Made by a program: the position numbers and the translations under genes
Shown here: one piece after another, positions 29,723 to 48,989 of the stretch
Position numbering within the stretch: the first letter of the stretch is position 1
Layout: each line of letters opens with the position of its first letter
Notes under the pieces: generated by a model
The model's input: only the letters and a program-made list of their open reading frames with translations
Databases searched by the model: none
What the model was told of the DNA's origin: nothing
From: an uncultured SAR116 cluster alpha proteobacterium
GTDB lineage: Bacteria > Pseudomonadota > Alphaproteobacteria > Puniceispirillales > GCA-002684695
Length of the DNA: 64,000 nt
Assembly: GCA_902612965.1 (NCBI GenBank)
Contig: CACMFN010000009.1
Coordinates: forward strand, 1-64,000
Reading direction: 5' to 3'

Positions 29723-31477
29723 TTATTCTGAAAACAACTGTAGTCTGCAAAGATTTGTATAAAATCCATCTTTAGAAATTAAAAAACTATGTGAACCACT
29801 TTCAACAATTTTCCCATCATCTAAAACTATAATATTGTCTGCTTTTCTTACAGTAGATAGTCTATGTGCAACAACTATTGTTGTTCTTCCTTTTGTTAAT
29901 TTTTCCATTGCAAATTGTATTTTTGACTCAGAGTCACTGTCAAGTGAACTAGTCGCTTCATCTAGAAGTAAAATAGGGGCATCTTTAAGAAAAGCTCTTG
30001 CAATTGCAATTCTTTGTTTTTGTCCACCTGAGAGAAAATTTCCTGCAGTCCCAACTCTTGTTTCATAACCATCAGGCATTGACTGAATAAAATCATGTGC
30101 AGCAGCATTTTGAGCAGCTTTTTTAACTTCATCTTGGCTAGCTTTGTGATTTCCGTTCAAAATATTATTTTTTATTGTGTCATCGAACAATGAAGCATCT
30201 TGAGAAACAAAAGCTATTTTTGAACGCAAAGATGAAATTTTTATATCTTTTATTTCCTGGTTGCCAATGTAAATCGATCCTCTGGAAGTATCATAAAATC
30301 TCTCAATAAGACCTAATATAGTTGTTTTTCCAGCACCAGAAGGACCTACAATTGCGGTAACCTTTCCTTTTTCTGCAGTAAATGAAATCTTTTTTACAAT
30401 ATCAGTTTTTTCATATCTAAAGTAAACATTCTCAAACCTTATACTTTCATTGCCTAATTTAATATCTTTTGCTGTTTTAGTAGAAAATATTTTGGGACGG
30501 CTGTCATTTAATTGATAAATTCTATTTGCTGCTGCAATACCTTCCTGTACAACCGAATTAAAGCTGCCCAAGCCTCTTGCCGGCTGCACCATAAGAAGCA
30601 TTGCAGTTATAAAGCCTGCAAAATCACCAACACTAAAATCTACTTTTCCCAATCTCCAAGTTCCAGAAATAATAACAATAGAAATTGCTATGCCACCTAA
30701 GATTTCTAAAATTGGTTCAACTCTTGCCCTGCCAACGTTTAGTTTCATCACTCTCAAGAAAAGTTCTTTAAAGTTATTCTTGCTTCTTTGCTTTTCATTA
30801 ACTTCTAAACTAAATGCCTTTATTATTGGTATATTTGTAATTGTTTCTGATAATTGAGAAATTAAATTCTCCATATGATTTTGGAGATTATAGCTAGCCT
30901 TTCTCTGATCAAGACCAATTTTTACAATCGGATATATTGCAATTGGAAAAACGCATAAAACTAAAAATGCCAAAAACCAATCATACCAAGCCATTAAGCA
31001 AATCATCGCAATGAGTGTTAAACTATCTTTTACAAAAGAATTTGCAACTCTAACCAGTGCATCTCTGATAAGATTTAAATCATTAACAATTCGGGAAACA
31101 TAATGTCCAGGCGGCTGGGAAGAAATTAGAGAGAGATCAGAGTCTATAAGTGTTGATGTCATCTTAAATTGAATTTCTTCGATAATTGAAAAAACTAATT
31201 TATTCACTACTTGTATTTGTCTATACACAGCAAAAGCTTTTATTATTGAAACCACTATTATAAGAACTGCTAACTGATATAATAATCCTGTGTCTTTTGC
31301 ACCCAAAGCATCAAAAACCCATCCAATTATAGCTGGGTATATTGCAAAACTGAACGCAACTAATGCTAAAAGTACTAAACAGAGAATTACTAATGATTTT
31401 TTGGGTTTTATATAATCATACCAAAATCTTATTATTATACTTTTTTTTGAAGAACTTTCAAAATTTTGGTCTGACAT
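29723..31477 (-). CDS. msbA: ABC transporter, lipid A export type (ATP-binding/permease)
   Basis: Six-TM domain fused to NBD: 'VGPSGAGKTTILGLIERFYD', 'LSGGQKQRIAIARAFLKDAPILLLDEATSSLD'. Adjacent to the lipid A genes. Confidence 0.88.
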   Translation of the reverse strand: MSDQNFESSSKKSIIIRFWYDYIKPKKSLVILCLVLLALVAFSFAIYPAIIGWVFDALGAKDTGLLYQLAVLIIVVSIIKAFAVYRQIQVVNKLVFSIIEEIQFKMTSTLIDSDLSLISSQPPGHYVSRIVNDLNLIRDALVRVANSFVKDSLTLIAMICLMAWYDWFLAFLVLCVFPIAIYPIVKIGLDQRKASYNLQNHMENLISQLSETITNIPIIKAFSLEVNEKQRSKNNFKELFLRVMKLNVGRARVEPILEILGGIAISIVIISGTWRLGKVDFSVGDFAGFITAMLLMVQPARGLGSFNSVVQEGIAAANRIYQLNDSRPKIFSTKTAKDIKLGNESIRFENVYFRYEKTDIVKKISFTAEKGKVTAIVGPSGAGKTTILGLIERFYDTSRGSIYIGNQEIKDIKISSLRSKIAFVSQDASLFDDTIKNNILNGNHKASQDEVKKAAQNAAAHDFIQSMPDGYETRVGTAGNFLSGGQKQRIAIARAFLKDAPILLLDEATSSLDSDSESKIQFAMEKLTKGRTTIVVAHRLSTVRKADNIIVLDDGKIVESGSHSFLISKDGFYTNLCRLQLFSE

Positions 31478-31598: not shown

Positions 31599-32282
31599 AT
31601 GATCAAAAAATTTAGTAAATCCAAAGTTGGCCAGACTATAATCGCAGTGTTAATTGCATTTGTTATTAAAACACTTTCAAATACTATTAGATGGAAAACT
31701 TTTGACCATAAATATAAATTGGAGGCTTTAAATGAAACAGAGCCTATTATTGTTGTTTTTTGGCATGAAAGAATTGCAGTTATGAGTAAAATATGGCCAT
31801 TAGATAAGCCATTAGCTATGTTACAATCACCTCATTCAGATGGTCAACTTATAGCTAAAGCAATAAATATGTTAGGCTTTCAAACTGTATGGGGGTCTAC
31901 TAACCGTAATGCTGCAGGCGGCATAATCGGTCTCATAAAGAAGGCAAAAAAAGGAGTTAGTATCGGTATCACGCCAGATGGCCCAAGAGGGCCCGCTCTA
32001 GTATGCAGCCAAGGTCCAGTTGCTGTAGCTAAACTTGCGGGTATAAAGATATTTCCAATCGCATGGTCAACATCAAGTTTTTGGCGTCTAAAAAATTGGG
32101 ATAAATCTTTAGTTCCTAAACCTTTTTCTAAGGGTATCTGGGTCTGGGGTGAACCGTTAGAAGTCCCAAAAAATGCATCTAAAGAAGACATAATAAGATT
32201 AACACAAGAATTAGAGAACTCCTTAAATTTTTATACAACACAAGCTGATAAATATTTTGGCCATATTAATGAAATTGTTTAA
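31599..32282 (+). CDS. Lysophospholipid acyltransferase family protein (DUF374)
   Basis: 'VVFWHERIAVMSKIW', 'SPHSDGQLIAKAI', 'GITPDGPRGPALVCSQGPVAVAKLAG'; upstream of waaA. Confidence 0.92.
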   Translation: MIKKFSKSKVGQTIIAVLIAFVIKTLSNTIRWKTFDHKYKLEALNETEPIIVVFWHERIAVMSKIWPLDKPLAMLQSPHSDGQLIAKAINMLGFQTVWGSTNRNAAGGIIGLIKKAKKGVSIGITPDGPRGPALVCSQGPVAVAKLAGIKIFPIAWSTSSFWRLKNWDKSLVPKPFSKGIWVWGEPLEVPKNASKEDIIRLTQELENSLNFYTTQADKYFGHINEIV

Positions 32283-33558
32283 ATTAATAAATTTTACAAA
32301 GTCATATGACCTAATTTGGCTCGTAATAACTCCATTTGTGCCTTTGCTAATTTTCTACAGGATAATTATAGGTAAAGAAGAAATTTTAAGAATTAAAGAA
32401 AGATTTGGATACCCCTCTACTACAAGAAACAAAAAGGATAAATTAATTTGGCTTCATGCAGCAAGCTTAGGAGAAGTGGCATCTGCTACTTCTTTAGCAA
32501 TTGGTTTCAAAGAGGCAAATTATAAAGGTTTAATTTTAATCACATCTGGAACAAAAACTTCAAGTGAATTTACAAAAAATTACAAAGATATTATTCACCA
32601 ATATCATCCATTAGATAAAAAAAAATGGGTTAATCGGTTTATTAGCTTTTGGGAGCCAGATATTTTAATTGTAATGGAATCAGATATCTGGCCGAATTTA
32701 ATTTTGTGTTCTAAAAGTTTTGGTTTACCAGTTGTTATGGCATCAGCCCAAATTTCAAATAAAAGTTTTACGAGAATGAAAAATTTAGGTTTTAGCAGTA
32801 CAGCGAATTTGTTTAATAAGGTAGATTTAATTTTAGCAACTGATAAAACCCAATCTGAAAAATTTTTGCAACTTGGGGCAAAAAAAGTGTTAACCGCAAA
32901 AAGCCTAAAAATTTCTTTACCCCCTCAGAAAACTGATCAACTTTACCTAGAAAATTTAAAAAAAGGTATTTCAAATAAAGTAATAATATTAGCTGCTTCA
33001 ACTCGAGAAGGCGAAGAGAGTATTCTAATAAATAGTATTCAAAAACTTAATAAAAAAAATCATAACGTTTTTCTTATTATTGCTCCTAGACATATTCAAA
33101 GGGCAAACAAAATAAGCAAAATAAATAATTTAAATATTAAAATTAAAAGTAAAGATGGTCTTCCAAGTTCTTATGATAATTTCTGGATTTCAAATACATA
33201 TGGTGAAATGTCAAATCTGTATAGCTTAGCAGACATTGTGTTTGTTGGGGGTTCACTTTACCCGTTTGGTGGGCATAATCCATCAGAACCTTGCCATTAT
33301 AAAACTAAAATAATTATGGGGCCTCATTCTGAAAAGTGCCAGGATATTGTTAGAGAAATGAAAGATAGTAATGCTTTAATTCAACTAAATTCAAATTCTG
33401 AAGATGAAATTATTAATTCGATAGAAAAAATAATAATTAATAAAGATTTTAGCAAAAGTTTATCAATAGCTGGATCAAAATTGGCAAAAAGCTGGCTAAA
33501 AATAAAAACTAATATTGCATATAAAATACTTAAAAAATTTCCATTATTAGTTTCTTAG
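32269..33558 (+). CDS. waaA: 3-deoxy-D-manno-octulosonic acid transferase
   Basis: 'ERFGYPSTTRNKKDKLIWLHAASLGEVASA', 'VMESDIWPNLI', 'VFVGGSLYPFGGHNPSEP'. ORF opens at 32257; ATG 32269 is a plausible start. Confidence 0.95.
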   Translation: MKLFKLINFTKSYDLIWLVITPFVPLLIFYRIIIGKEEILRIKERFGYPSTTRNKKDKLIWLHAASLGEVASATSLAIGFKEANYKGLILITSGTKTSSEFTKNYKDIIHQYHPLDKKKWVNRFISFWEPDILIVMESDIWPNLILCSKSFGLPVVMASAQISNKSFTRMKNLGFSSTANLFNKVDLILATDKTQSEKFLQLGAKKVLTAKSLKISLPPQKTDQLYLENLKKGISNKVIILAASTREGEESILINSIQKLNKKNHNVFLIIAPRHIQRANKISKINNLNIKIKSKDGLPSSYDNFWISNTYGEMSNLYSLADIVFVGGSLYPFGGHNPSEPCHYKTKIIMGPHSEKCQDIVREMKDSNALIQLNSNSEDEIINSIEKIIINKDFSKSLSIAGSKLAKSWLKIKTNIAYKILKKFPLLVS

Positions 33559-33559
33559 C

Positions 33560-34147
33560 ATGATCAAGCAACCAAAATTTTGGACCAATAAAAACTTTAT
33601 TTCAAATATTTTATTGCCTGTAAGTATAATTTTTTTACTTTTGAGCAAAATTAGAAATTTACTTCAGAAAAAATTAAAATCTAAATTATTTGTAATATGT
33701 ATTGGTAATATAACAATAGGAGGCACAGGCAAAACACCAACTGTAATGTTTTTTGCAGAACAGATAAAAAAATTAGATTTTAAACCAATAATATTATCAA
33801 AAGGATATGGTGGGAAATTAACTGGTCCTAAGAAAGTTATCACAAAGCATAAAACCTTTGATGTTGGCGATGAAGCTGTGATGCATTCATTATACAATGA
33901 AACATGGATATCAAAAAAACGCAGTAAAGCAATTAGAATGATTGAAAAACAAAGTTCTAACAAAAGTCTAATTCTAATGGATGACGGTTTGCAAAATAAT
34001 TCTATATATCAAGATCTAAAAATTTGTATTTTTGATGGAAGTATGGGATTAGGAAATAGTAGAATTTTGCCCTCAGGGCCTTTAAGAGAGAGTTTGATTT
34101 CAGGATTAAAAAAAAACAAATATAGCCATTATTATCGGAGAGGATAA
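33560..34147 (+). CDS. lpxK: Tetraacyldisaccharide 4'-kinase, N-terminal part (reading frame broken at A9)
   Basis: 'VICIGNITIGGTGKTPTVMFFAEQI', 'ILSKGYGGKLTGP', 'GDEAVMHSL', 'LILMDDGLQN', 'PLRESLISGLKK' then frameshifted tail NKYSHYYRRG*. Confidence 0.9.
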   Translation: MIKQPKFWTNKNFISNILLPVSIIFLLLSKIRNLLQKKLKSKLFVICIGNITIGGTGKTPTVMFFAEQIKKLDFKPIILSKGYGGKLTGPKKVITKHKTFDVGDEAVMHSLYNETWISKKRSKAIRMIEKQSSNKSLILMDDGLQNNSIYQDLKICIFDGSMGLGNSRILPSGPLRESLISGLKKNKYSHYYRRG

Positions 34148-34187
34148 AAATAACATTCAGCAAACAATTTTAAAAAATAGAGAGCAT

Positions 34188-34565
34188 GTGAATGTTTATA
34201 ATGGTGTTTTTGTTCCTGACAAAAATACAATACAAGAATTAAATAATAAAAAATTATATGCCTTTGCTGGAATTGGTATTCCGGATAAATTTTATGAGCT
34301 TTTAAAATCTTTTAATTTAAATTTAATTAAAACAAAAAGTTTTCCTGATCACTATAAATATAAGGAACATGACCTGCAAAAGCTTGTAAAAGAAAGTAAA
34401 GAACTAAAATTAAAATTAATCACAACTGAAAAAGATTTCATAAAAATAAAAGAAATTGTCCCAAATATAAGCAATCAAATTATACCATTAAAAATCAAAT
34501 TAAAGATTAATAATAAAGATCAACTAATAGAAAAAATTAAATCTGCAATTTATGAAAAAAATTAA
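34188..34565 (+). CDS. lpxK: Tetraacyldisaccharide 4'-kinase, C-terminal part (downstream of frameshift)
   Basis: 'KKLYAFAGIGIPDKFYELLKSF...FPDHYKYKEHDLQKL...LITTEKDFIKI' is LpxK C-terminus. The same frame reads upstream without stop to the A9 tract (KTNIAIIIGEDKNNIQQTILKNREHVNVYNG). Confidence 0.88.
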   Translation: MNVYNGVFVPDKNTIQELNNKKLYAFAGIGIPDKFYELLKSFNLNLIKTKSFPDHYKYKEHDLQKLVKESKELKLKLITTEKDFIKIKEIVPNISNQIIPLKIKLKINNKDQLIEKIKSAIYEKN

Positions 34566-35427
34566 TAGGATAATTGAGAAAATAATTTTTGAGCCTTTAC
34601 AAGGAATTTTTGCAATTTTCTTATACTATTTATTTGCATCCCTAAAACCAGAAACTGCCAGTTGGTTGGGAGGTCAGCTAGCACTAAAAATTTCTTTTCT
34701 CCTACCTCAAAATAAAAGGGCCAAAGATAACATAAAATTAATATTTCCACATTTACCAGAAATTAAAAGAAATAAAATACTCCGCGAGACTATTGAAAAC
34801 CTTGGTAGAAATGCAGGAGAGTATCCCCATTTAGGAAGAATTCAGGAATTCATAAAAGTTAGGGGTTTAAATAACCTACCCAAAAATGAAAAGCCCTTTA
34901 TATTGGTAGCCGCTCACCTTGCAAACTGGGAGTTAACGCCATATCCAGGCACTTTAGTCAATAGACCAGTTATGAGAGTTTATAGAAAATTAAATGCACC
35001 ACTAGCTGAATGGATATTGAGAAAAAAGAAGTCACCACTACCAGGTGAAGTTGTCCCCAAAGGAAATAAAGGAGCAATTAAAATGTTATCTGTGTTGAGG
35101 TCTAATGGAATTGTACTGCTACTTTCTGATCAGAGATTGAACACAGGTATCAAAATTAACTTTATGGGAAAACCAGCAAATACTCTAACTTCACCAGCTG
35201 TTATGTCATTAAAACTAGGTTGTCCAATTATACCTTTACAAATCAAAAGAAATAAAGGCCTTTCTTTTGATATAATAATTCATCCAGCGCTTGATTTAGC
35301 AAAATTTAGAGGTAACCATAAAACAAAAGTTGAAAATATAATGATTGATATAAATAATTTAATATCCTCTTGGATTAATCAAAATCCAGGACAATGGTTT
35401 TGGCACCACAGAAGATGGAAAGTTTAA
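34552..35427 (+). CDS. lpxL: Lipid A biosynthesis lauroyl/myristoyl acyltransferase
   Basis: 'FILVAAHLANWELTPYPG', 'LLLSDQRLNTGIKINFMGKPANT', 'PGQWFWHHRRWK'. Confidence 0.9.
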   Translation: MKKINRIIEKIIFEPLQGIFAIFLYYLFASLKPETASWLGGQLALKISFLLPQNKRAKDNIKLIFPHLPEIKRNKILRETIENLGRNAGEYPHLGRIQEFIKVRGLNNLPKNEKPFILVAAHLANWELTPYPGTLVNRPVMRVYRKLNAPLAEWILRKKKSPLPGEVVPKGNKGAIKMLSVLRSNGIVLLLSDQRLNTGIKINFMGKPANTLTSPAVMSLKLGCPIIPLQIKRNKGLSFDIIIHPALDLAKFRGNHKTKVENIMIDINNLISSWINQNPGQWFWHHRRWKV

Positions 35428-36905
35428 CCTTTATTATTTTTGTTTAAAATTAATGCTTCAGCAATACCATCAATAAACTTCAATTTTACTGATTTTTTTT
35501 GTATTAGTTTTTCTAATTTATTAACTTTTTTTCCATCATGATTTTCAACATACGCAAACCCCCTGTCAAAAATTTTTTTCAAGTTGGAGTTTTCTAATAG
35601 TCTTTCTAAATTTTTAAAACGCTGCTCTAAAATGGCTAAATTATTTTTTTTTGTTTTTCTTAGTGATAAGTAAAGTGACTTAGATTTATCAGATTTTGTT
35701 TCAATAAGTAAAAATAAGTTTTTTAAATTTATATTATTTATCGATTTAGTAAATTTAAGCTGATTAAAATTAATTTTATTATTTACAAAATTAGATGACT
35801 TATAGAAATAGTTTACAACTTTACTCTCAATCTTATTAAATAATTCTTCTGGGACACCTAATAGAGACTTTAAATTTAAAAAGTTTAAATTTTTCTCAGA
35901 AATATGTTTTTCAACTAAATTTCCTAGTTCAATAGTTTTTATATCCAACCTTTGACTGGGTGATAAAAGAAAATTTTCAATTTTATCAAAAAATTTTTTT
36001 TGAAATAATGTCTTCTTATTATTTTCATTAATAATATGAAGTATAGAATTTTTAATTCTACTTTTTATAATTTTTATTTTAGATAGTATATCTGCCTTAT
36101 TAGGGGTTACAATAACAGCAGCTTTTGTAGGTGTCGGTGCCCTAATATCGGAAACCATATCAATCAAAGTTGTATCTGTTTCATGTCCAATAGCTGAAAC
36201 AATTGGTAATTTACTTTTAAAAACTTTTTCAATTAAAATTTCTTCATTAAATGCCCATAAATCCTCAACACTGCCTCCTCCTCGAGCAATTATCAATAAA
36301 TCTGGTTTTTTTCTTGGGTCATGTATATTGTTAAAATAATCAATAGAAGCTGAAATTTTTTCTGCAGATTTCAAGCCTTGAACGGGAACTGAATAGATAA
36401 TAATCTTACACGGCCACCTCCCTCTAAAAGTTTCAAGTATGTCTTCAATAACTGATCCTTGTAAACTTGTGATAACACCCACGCAAGTAGGATAAAGTGG
36501 TAATTTTTTTTTTATTTCATCATTAAAGTACCCTTTCTCAAAAAAATATTTTTTTCTTTCTTCCAATTTTTTTAGGAGTGCTCCCTCTCCAGCGTGCTCT
36601 ATTTTTGAAATATTAATTTGATATGAAGATCTTCCTGGGTATGTTGTTAGTTTACCCGTACAAATAACTTCCAAACCTTCTTCAGGTTTTATACCAATGT
36701 TGGTGGTTGTCCATTTCCATACTGTTGCATTGATTATCGATGAATCATCCTTGAGAGAAAAATAAATATGCCCAGATGAAGGGAAGCTTGGCTTTGAAAT
36801 TTCTCCTCTAATACGGACGTATTCAAAAGAATTTTCAATTGTATTTTTAATTGCCTGTGAAAGTTCTTTAATATTCCAAATTTTCGAATTAATATTTTCA
36901 ATCAT
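35424..36905 (-). CDS. xseA: Exodeoxyribonuclease VII large subunit
   Basis: 'VRIRGEISKPSFPSSGHIYFSLKDDSSII', 'LIIARGGGSVEDLWAFNEE', 'IVSAIGHETDTTLIDMVSDIRAPTPTKAA'. Confidence 0.97.
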   Translation of the reverse strand: MIENINSKIWNIKELSQAIKNTIENSFEYVRIRGEISKPSFPSSGHIYFSLKDDSSIINATVWKWTTTNIGIKPEEGLEVICTGKLTTYPGRSSYQINISKIEHAGEGALLKKLEERKKYFFEKGYFNDEIKKKLPLYPTCVGVITSLQGSVIEDILETFRGRWPCKIIIYSVPVQGLKSAEKISASIDYFNNIHDPRKKPDLLIIARGGGSVEDLWAFNEEILIEKVFKSKLPIVSAIGHETDTTLIDMVSDIRAPTPTKAAVIVTPNKADILSKIKIIKSRIKNSILHIINENNKKTLFQKKFFDKIENFLLSPSQRLDIKTIELGNLVEKHISEKNLNFLNLKSLLGVPEELFNKIESKVVNYFYKSSNFVNNKINFNQLKFTKSINNINLKNLFLLIETKSDKSKSLYLSLRKTKKNNLAILEQRFKNLERLLENSNLKKIFDRGFAYVENHDGKKVNKLEKLIQKKSVKLKFIDGIAEALILNKNNKG

Positions 36906-48225: not shown

Positions 48226-48276
48226 ATTTATTGCTTAAAAAAAAATAAAATATAATAATTCAAGTGAATTAATTCT

Positions 48277-48363
48277 GCGGATGTGGCGGAATTGGTAGAC
48301 GCAGGGGATTCAAAATCCCCCGGTGGCAACACCTTGTCGGTTCAAGTCCGACCATCCGTACCA
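48277..48363 (+). tRNA. tRNA-Leu (anticodon CAA), CCA end encoded
   Basis: Acceptor gcggatg/catccgt, D-arm 'GGCGGAATTGGTAGACGC', anticodon stem-loop ggggaTTCAAAAtcccc, long class II variable arm, T-loop 'GGTTCAAGTCC', discriminator A + CCA. Confidence 0.96.
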
Positions 48364-48374
48364 TATTAATTCAT

Positions 48375-48989
48375 TTGCCCGTAAAGGATAAACCCATAAA
48401 ATTTAATTTTTTAAATAAAGTTCAATTTGTTGAAAAATTTTTTGAAATATCTTCAAAAAAATCAACTAACAATGCCCTTTACGGCCTATCCTTTGCTGAA
48501 TCAATATTTTTTCCAATACCAATTGATCCATTGCTAGCTGCATGTGTGATTGCAAAACCAAAAAAAATTTTTTTAATAACTTTTCTAACTACATTTGCAT
48601 CAGTTTTTGGAGGAATAATTGGTTGGTGTATAGGACTATATATTGGAGTTGGGTTACAAAATCTTGTTGAGTTTATACCAGGTTTATCAGTTCATAAGCT
48701 AAAAAGTGTAAACGAAGCATTTAGAGAATGGGGGCTAATTCTTACATTCATAGGGGCCTTTACACCACTGCCTTACAAATTAATTGCTCTAAGTTCAGGA
48801 GCAACAGGAGTACCATTATTGATTTTTGTAATTGGCTCTATTATGGGAAGAGGAATAAGATTTACTATAGTTGCTTTACTTTCGTATTATTTAGGTGAGA
48901 AAGCTATAAATTTTATAAAAAACAACCTTGCATTGACCTCTGTGATCTTAGCTATAATTATAATAATTATATGGTTTTTGATAATTTAA
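48375..48989 (+). CDS. YqaA/VTT (DedA-like) family membrane protein
   Basis: 'YGLSFAESIFFPIPIDPLLAACVIAKPKK', 'WGLILTFIGAFTPLPYKLIALSSGATG'; TTG start 12 nt after the tRNA. Confidence 0.88.
   Translation: MPVKDKPIKFNFLNKVQFVEKFFEISSKKSTNNALYGLSFAESIFFPIPIDPLLAACVIAKPKKIFLITFLTTFASVFGGIIGWCIGLYIGVGLQNLVEFIPGLSVHKLKSVNEAFREWGLILTFIGAFTPLPYKLIALSSGATGVPLLIFVIGSIMGRGIRFTIVALLSYYLGEKAINFIKNNLALTSVILAIIIIIIWFLII

Follow-up and report, generated by a model that had tools for sequence, protein, structure and literature searches.

A one-base frame break at an A9 run in lpxK of a draft, probably SAR116-type, genome

In the window, the 64,000-nucleotide stretch of DNA analysed here, a poly-A run that is one base too long divides the lpxK gene between two frames, and we favour, with a probability of about 0.5, the explanation that the surplus base is a consensus error or else a minority or amplification variant chosen by the assembler. 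If so, the gene would be an ordinary single-chain LpxK (tetraacyldisaccharide 4'-kinase) with an A8 tract that reads as A9 in the draft, and the living population would most likely make full-length LpxK from an in-frame copy, the organism's own lpxK thus presumably being in frame. A genuine fresh mutation ranks second. The initial annotation had offered error, recent mutation and rescue by slippage, which proved to be the right set of options; slippage is disfavoured, and error and mutation can be told apart only in part. The break is of an ordinary kind, and nothing found here warrants assigning a function to the split form.

Direct reading places the nine A's at 34108-34116 of the forward strand, with a T before and a C after (GGATT, then A9, then CAAATATAGCC), and both the alignment with three same-genus copies and translation at different run lengths locate the frame break in this run. 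The upstream frame goes from an ATG at 33560 to a premature TAA at 34145-34147 (ORF 33560-34147, forward strand, 195 aa), its final 10 codons, past the A run, being out of frame. The downstream frame is open on the same strand from 34110, within the run, to a TAA at 34563-34565, and the listed ORF inside it (34188-34565) counts 125 aa from a GTG. With nine A's the peptide ends in ...SGLKKNKYSHYYRRG followed by the stop, and with eight it becomes ...SGLKKTNIAIIIGEDKNN... and reads on without a stop; peptides spanning the segment GLKKTNIAIIIGEDK would report full-length LpxK. The initial annotation had the coordinates of the run, both ORFs and both peptides right, and underestimated the joined protein, given as about 320 aa, for which translation yields 334 aa. 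When the run length alone was varied, a single frame was restored by A8 (334 codons) and by A11 (335); A9 and A12 led to a stop after 195 and 196 codons, and A7 and A10, neither of which restores the lpxK frame, to one after 187 and 188. The run itself is at chance level: shuffling predicts 94 A8 matches over the two strands of the window, which has 72, so that long A runs are no commoner there than chance, if not rarer. The break is not chance, since the two pieces cover successive halves of a single 328-position profile (168.6 and 85.8 bits) and each of the three same-genus copies is one open frame.

Both pieces match LpxK, in Pfam as well as in NCBIfam, and no other family, which bears out the original proposal that a single surplus base in a poly-A run splits lpxK. 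Against PF02606 (Pfam cut-off 27) the upstream piece scores 170.2 bits over profile positions 3-176 and the downstream piece 84.5 bits over 218-327, and the upstream piece also scores 132.8 bits against TIGR00682, whose cut-off is 91.95. The structure matches are PDB 4EHX/4EHW for the upstream piece and 4EHX 224-306 for the downstream one; we take these to be Aquifex-type LpxK structures. The P-loop (IGGTGKTP) and DDGLQ motifs lie in the first piece, and the FPDHYKY and TTEKD segments in the second. A single uninterrupted LpxK frame is precluded by the TAA that follows the A9 run, and a search of the genome, a draft that is 83% complete, found lpxK in single copy.

The window's own lpxK is the only LpxK match with an internal stop in 101 genomes from its genus and order. 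The comparison with sister lpxK genes, which the initial annotation had proposed, yielded three same-genus copies, all intact open frames of 333-340 codons that are 55-58% identical to the window's upstream piece and 42-43% identical to the downstream piece. At the break site they carry TTA6TATT (G001) or TTA8TTG or TTA8TTN (G003 and G004), and the frameshift is shared by none of the three. The irregular copies at the order level are partial or in pieces, one of them (G038) being spread over two contigs. Two apparent losses were rejected as assembly artefacts: a seemingly broken or internally deleted lpxK (locus L160, G030:C8) has a 100-N scaffold gap inside it, and in the closest sister genome, G002 (91-98% DNA identity in aligned stretches), the gene is missing because contig C14 ends at the equivalent of window position 36106, just short of lpxK. 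In regards to a second sequence of the same species, a scan of named genomes returned distant relatives only and the viral collection returned none.

A comparison of branch lengths over 48 tips, with a fixed topology, gave no hint of relaxed constraint in the downstream piece. The ratio of the C-part to the N-part is 1.58 for the window lpxK, which ranks 12th of the 48, with 12 tips having a ratio as high or higher; two same-genus copies give 2.02 and 1.41, and the median is 1.14. The window lpxK carries this one break and no further disabling changes, which speaks against a decaying pseudogene. With no relaxed constraint downstream, the break either arose very recently, is put right during expression or is absent from the organism, and a constrained downstream frame is equally expected for a very recent break and for an error.

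The lipid A pathway is otherwise intact. Pfam and NCBIfam matches support the waaA, lpxL-type and msbA genes that had been reported alongside lpxK. Intact waaA (Kdo transferase; 32257-33558, forward strand; PF04413, and NF004387 with 256 bits) lies directly upstream, an intact lipid A acyltransferase of the LpxL family (34552-35427, forward; PF03279, 141 bits, and NF005150) overlaps the end of lpxK, and an intact DUF374 acyltransferase-like gene (31599-32282, forward; PF04028, 81.8 bits) is also present. On the strand opposite to lpxK there is an intact MsbA-type ABC exporter (29723-31477), whose best NCBIfam match, TIGR02203, reaches 475 bits and is under its cut-off of 602. LpxC, LpxB and LptD are intact elsewhere in the genome. 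LpxK acts between LpxB and WaaA, and by established lipid A biochemistry losing it with the pathway otherwise intact should be very harmful. Given that LpxC, LpxB, LptD, WaaA, the LpxL-like acyltransferase and the MsbA-like transporter are all intact, LpxK should be needed and its loss strongly selected against.

In order to evaluate the accuracy of the draft (2.14 Mb in 60 contigs), we relied on protein-level and run-by-run comparisons, which replaced megablast gap counts that were noisy in diverged stretches. Coding A/T runs of at least 8 had equal length in 96 of 96 orthologous pairs between this genome and G002, and at the protein level no frame break of this genome relative to G002 was found over about 210 kb of coding sequence. 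The assembly is therefore not generally error-prone, and does not look like one built from raw long reads or by pyrosequencing; these comparisons are still compatible with a few wrong run lengths. Against other same-genus stretches (about 73 kb, also at the protein level) lpxK was the only frame break. In G002, for its part, the frame is broken four times against this genome over the same 210 kb or so (loci L112, L141 and L152), twice at homopolymers (T8 and A6).

A start-free scan for further breaks, covering about 697 kb of stretches, gave 17 candidate junctions, most of which were, by inspection, ordinary neighbour genes overlapping at stop and start. Homology confirmed lpxK and one other, the gene of a membrane-bound class III adenylate/guanylate cyclase homologue, which breaks at a T9 run (G000:C1:95685-96912, or 15685-16912 of L093, minus strand; the run at about 16649-16657 of L093, near 96649 of G000:C1). 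Its first and second parts align one after the other along a relative of 442 codons, the relatives' frames having 439-442 codons, and an intact paralogue, 51% identical, lies on contig C19 of this genome. In the sampled stretches this amounts to roughly 2 breaks against 66 counted coding runs of at least 9, or about 3%. A further junction (L100:15212, within 14954-16067 of L100, minus strand) lies at an A8 run, where a sugar-isomerase-like frame of 290 codons gives way to a cysteine-rich frame of 88 codons that is out of frame with it; the second frame may belong to a neighbouring gene of the ordinary sort or mark one more break. Within the window, a VTT-domain gene frame (48273-48989) starts inside a tRNA-Leu gene (48277-48363), so that the real start lies further on and gene callers may make the gene too long.

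Consensus errors concentrate at homopolymer runs, and the reading of the extra A as an error or minority variant is supported by the homopolymer site, the draft state of the assembly, the intact same-genus copies, the intact pathway and the absence of downstream decay. What counts against an error is that the assembly is not generally error-prone and that slippage mutation is real: the length of noncoding runs of at least 8 differs in 3 of 29 cases between this genome and G002.

The strongest competitor, which we regard as possible, is precisely such an event, a very recent one-base insertion by replication slippage at an A8 tract, leaving the sequenced cell or strain with a null or near-null lpxK that would soon be lost or reverted. 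The variation of noncoding runs between the sisters supports a real insertion, the A8 in two same-genus copies makes the lpxK site a natural hotspot for slippage mutation, and frame breaks at runs seem to occur in the genus, as in the T9-split cyclase and in two of the four breaks of G002. However, with an intact pathway and a single-copy lpxK such a mutation would be lethal or very costly, and no decay is seen downstream of the break.

To our knowledge, fixed frameshifts that are read through slippage have so far been described mainly for insect endosymbionts. For lpxK, this alternative would make the A9 real and tolerated, some mRNAs acquiring A8 (or A11) when RNA polymerase slips and so yielding full-length LpxK, as has been reported for Buchnera and Blochmannia, and we consider it unlikely. 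The length of the run is within the slippage range and the run sits exactly at the frame break, the downstream frame is conserved (ratio 1.58), and the fraction of long coding runs that are broken is similar to that in Blochmannia vafer, where 153 long polyA tracts go with 8 frameshifted genes (PMC3017870). However, rescue requires a change of -1 or +2 in the A9, and in published tests with E. coli RNA polymerase rescue by deletion was undetectable for the poly(A) runs that were examined (PMC6260861). Transcriptome-wide, 80% of transcription insertions are single-base and homopolymer deletions are rare in E. coli, although more than half of the single-base deletions in Buchnera fall in homopolymers (PMC5574713). 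Moreover, the frameshift is not common to the relatives, and the genome is not of endosymbiont type. The parallel with AT-rich endosymbionts drawn in the initial annotation does not carry over, since a genome of about 2.1 Mb and 30% GC probably belongs to a free-living, low-GC SAR116-type marine bacterium (order Puniceispirillales). The GC content, about 30% here, is close to the 30.55 +/- 0.87 of the low-GC SAR116 subclade (PMC8547437), and the nearest named relatives point the same way, the LpxK of a same-order genome (G010, locus L031) being 62% identical to that of a SAR116 single-cell genome (L041). The broader proposition, that RNA polymerase slippage lets this probably free-living low-GC marine alphaproteobacterium read needed genes in which frameshifts at 9-base A/T runs have become fixed, is more doubtful still.

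The remaining explanations fare worse. A phase-variable switch of lipid A synthesis by tract length would fit a homopolymer within a surface-lipid gene, but A runs are not enriched in the window, G001 has A6 only, and the target would be a core essential step instead of a decorating enzyme, all of which makes it very improbable. Programmed ribosomal frameshifting could appeal to A AAA AAC (34111-34117), a classical -1 slippery heptamer, but is largely refuted by the direction of the shift, since +1 is required and -1 meets a TAG at 34123-34125, in the same frame as the A10 reading; the relatives also lack a shift site, and we give it next to no credence. That LpxK works as two separate chains is hardly credible either, because, even though the family motifs are kept in both pieces, the listed GTG start (34188) of the second chain leaves out about 24 codons past the break and none of the relatives in the 101 genomes is split.

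If the extra A is an error or a fresh mutation, the case serves as a warning only, in that lipid A synthesis will come out as broken when genes are called in this genome, very probably wrongly. Were the A9 fixed and read through, slippage-tolerated frameshifts would be shown for streamlined free-living bacteria too, even in an essential enzyme of the envelope, and a long A run could no longer serve to call a pseudogene in such bacteria.

Compared with known systems, lpxK shares with the presumed slippage cases of Blochmannia and Buchnera (PMC3017870 and references therein) a single indel in a long A tract of an otherwise preserved gene, and a similar fraction of long tracts is affected, but here there is no reduced endosymbiont genome, the frameshift is unshared, and rescue would need a deletion or +2. 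The A11 of Citrobacter rodentium tssM1 is likewise a poly-A tract shortly before a premature stop; there, however, reiterative transcription was shown to add A's, with about 20% +1 frameshifting (PMC4256274), and the A9 of lpxK is not restored by +1. Relative to the LpxK family itself (PF02606, TIGR00682; PDB 4EHX), the two pieces together cover almost all of the profile and retain the P-loop, DDGxQ, FPDH and TTEKD segments, the gene being broken by one base at the A9 where its relatives are single open frames. The present evidence shows no difference from the homopolymer errors and recent pseudogenes of draft genomes, with which the window lpxK has in common an isolated single-base break and a frame conserved on both sides of it.
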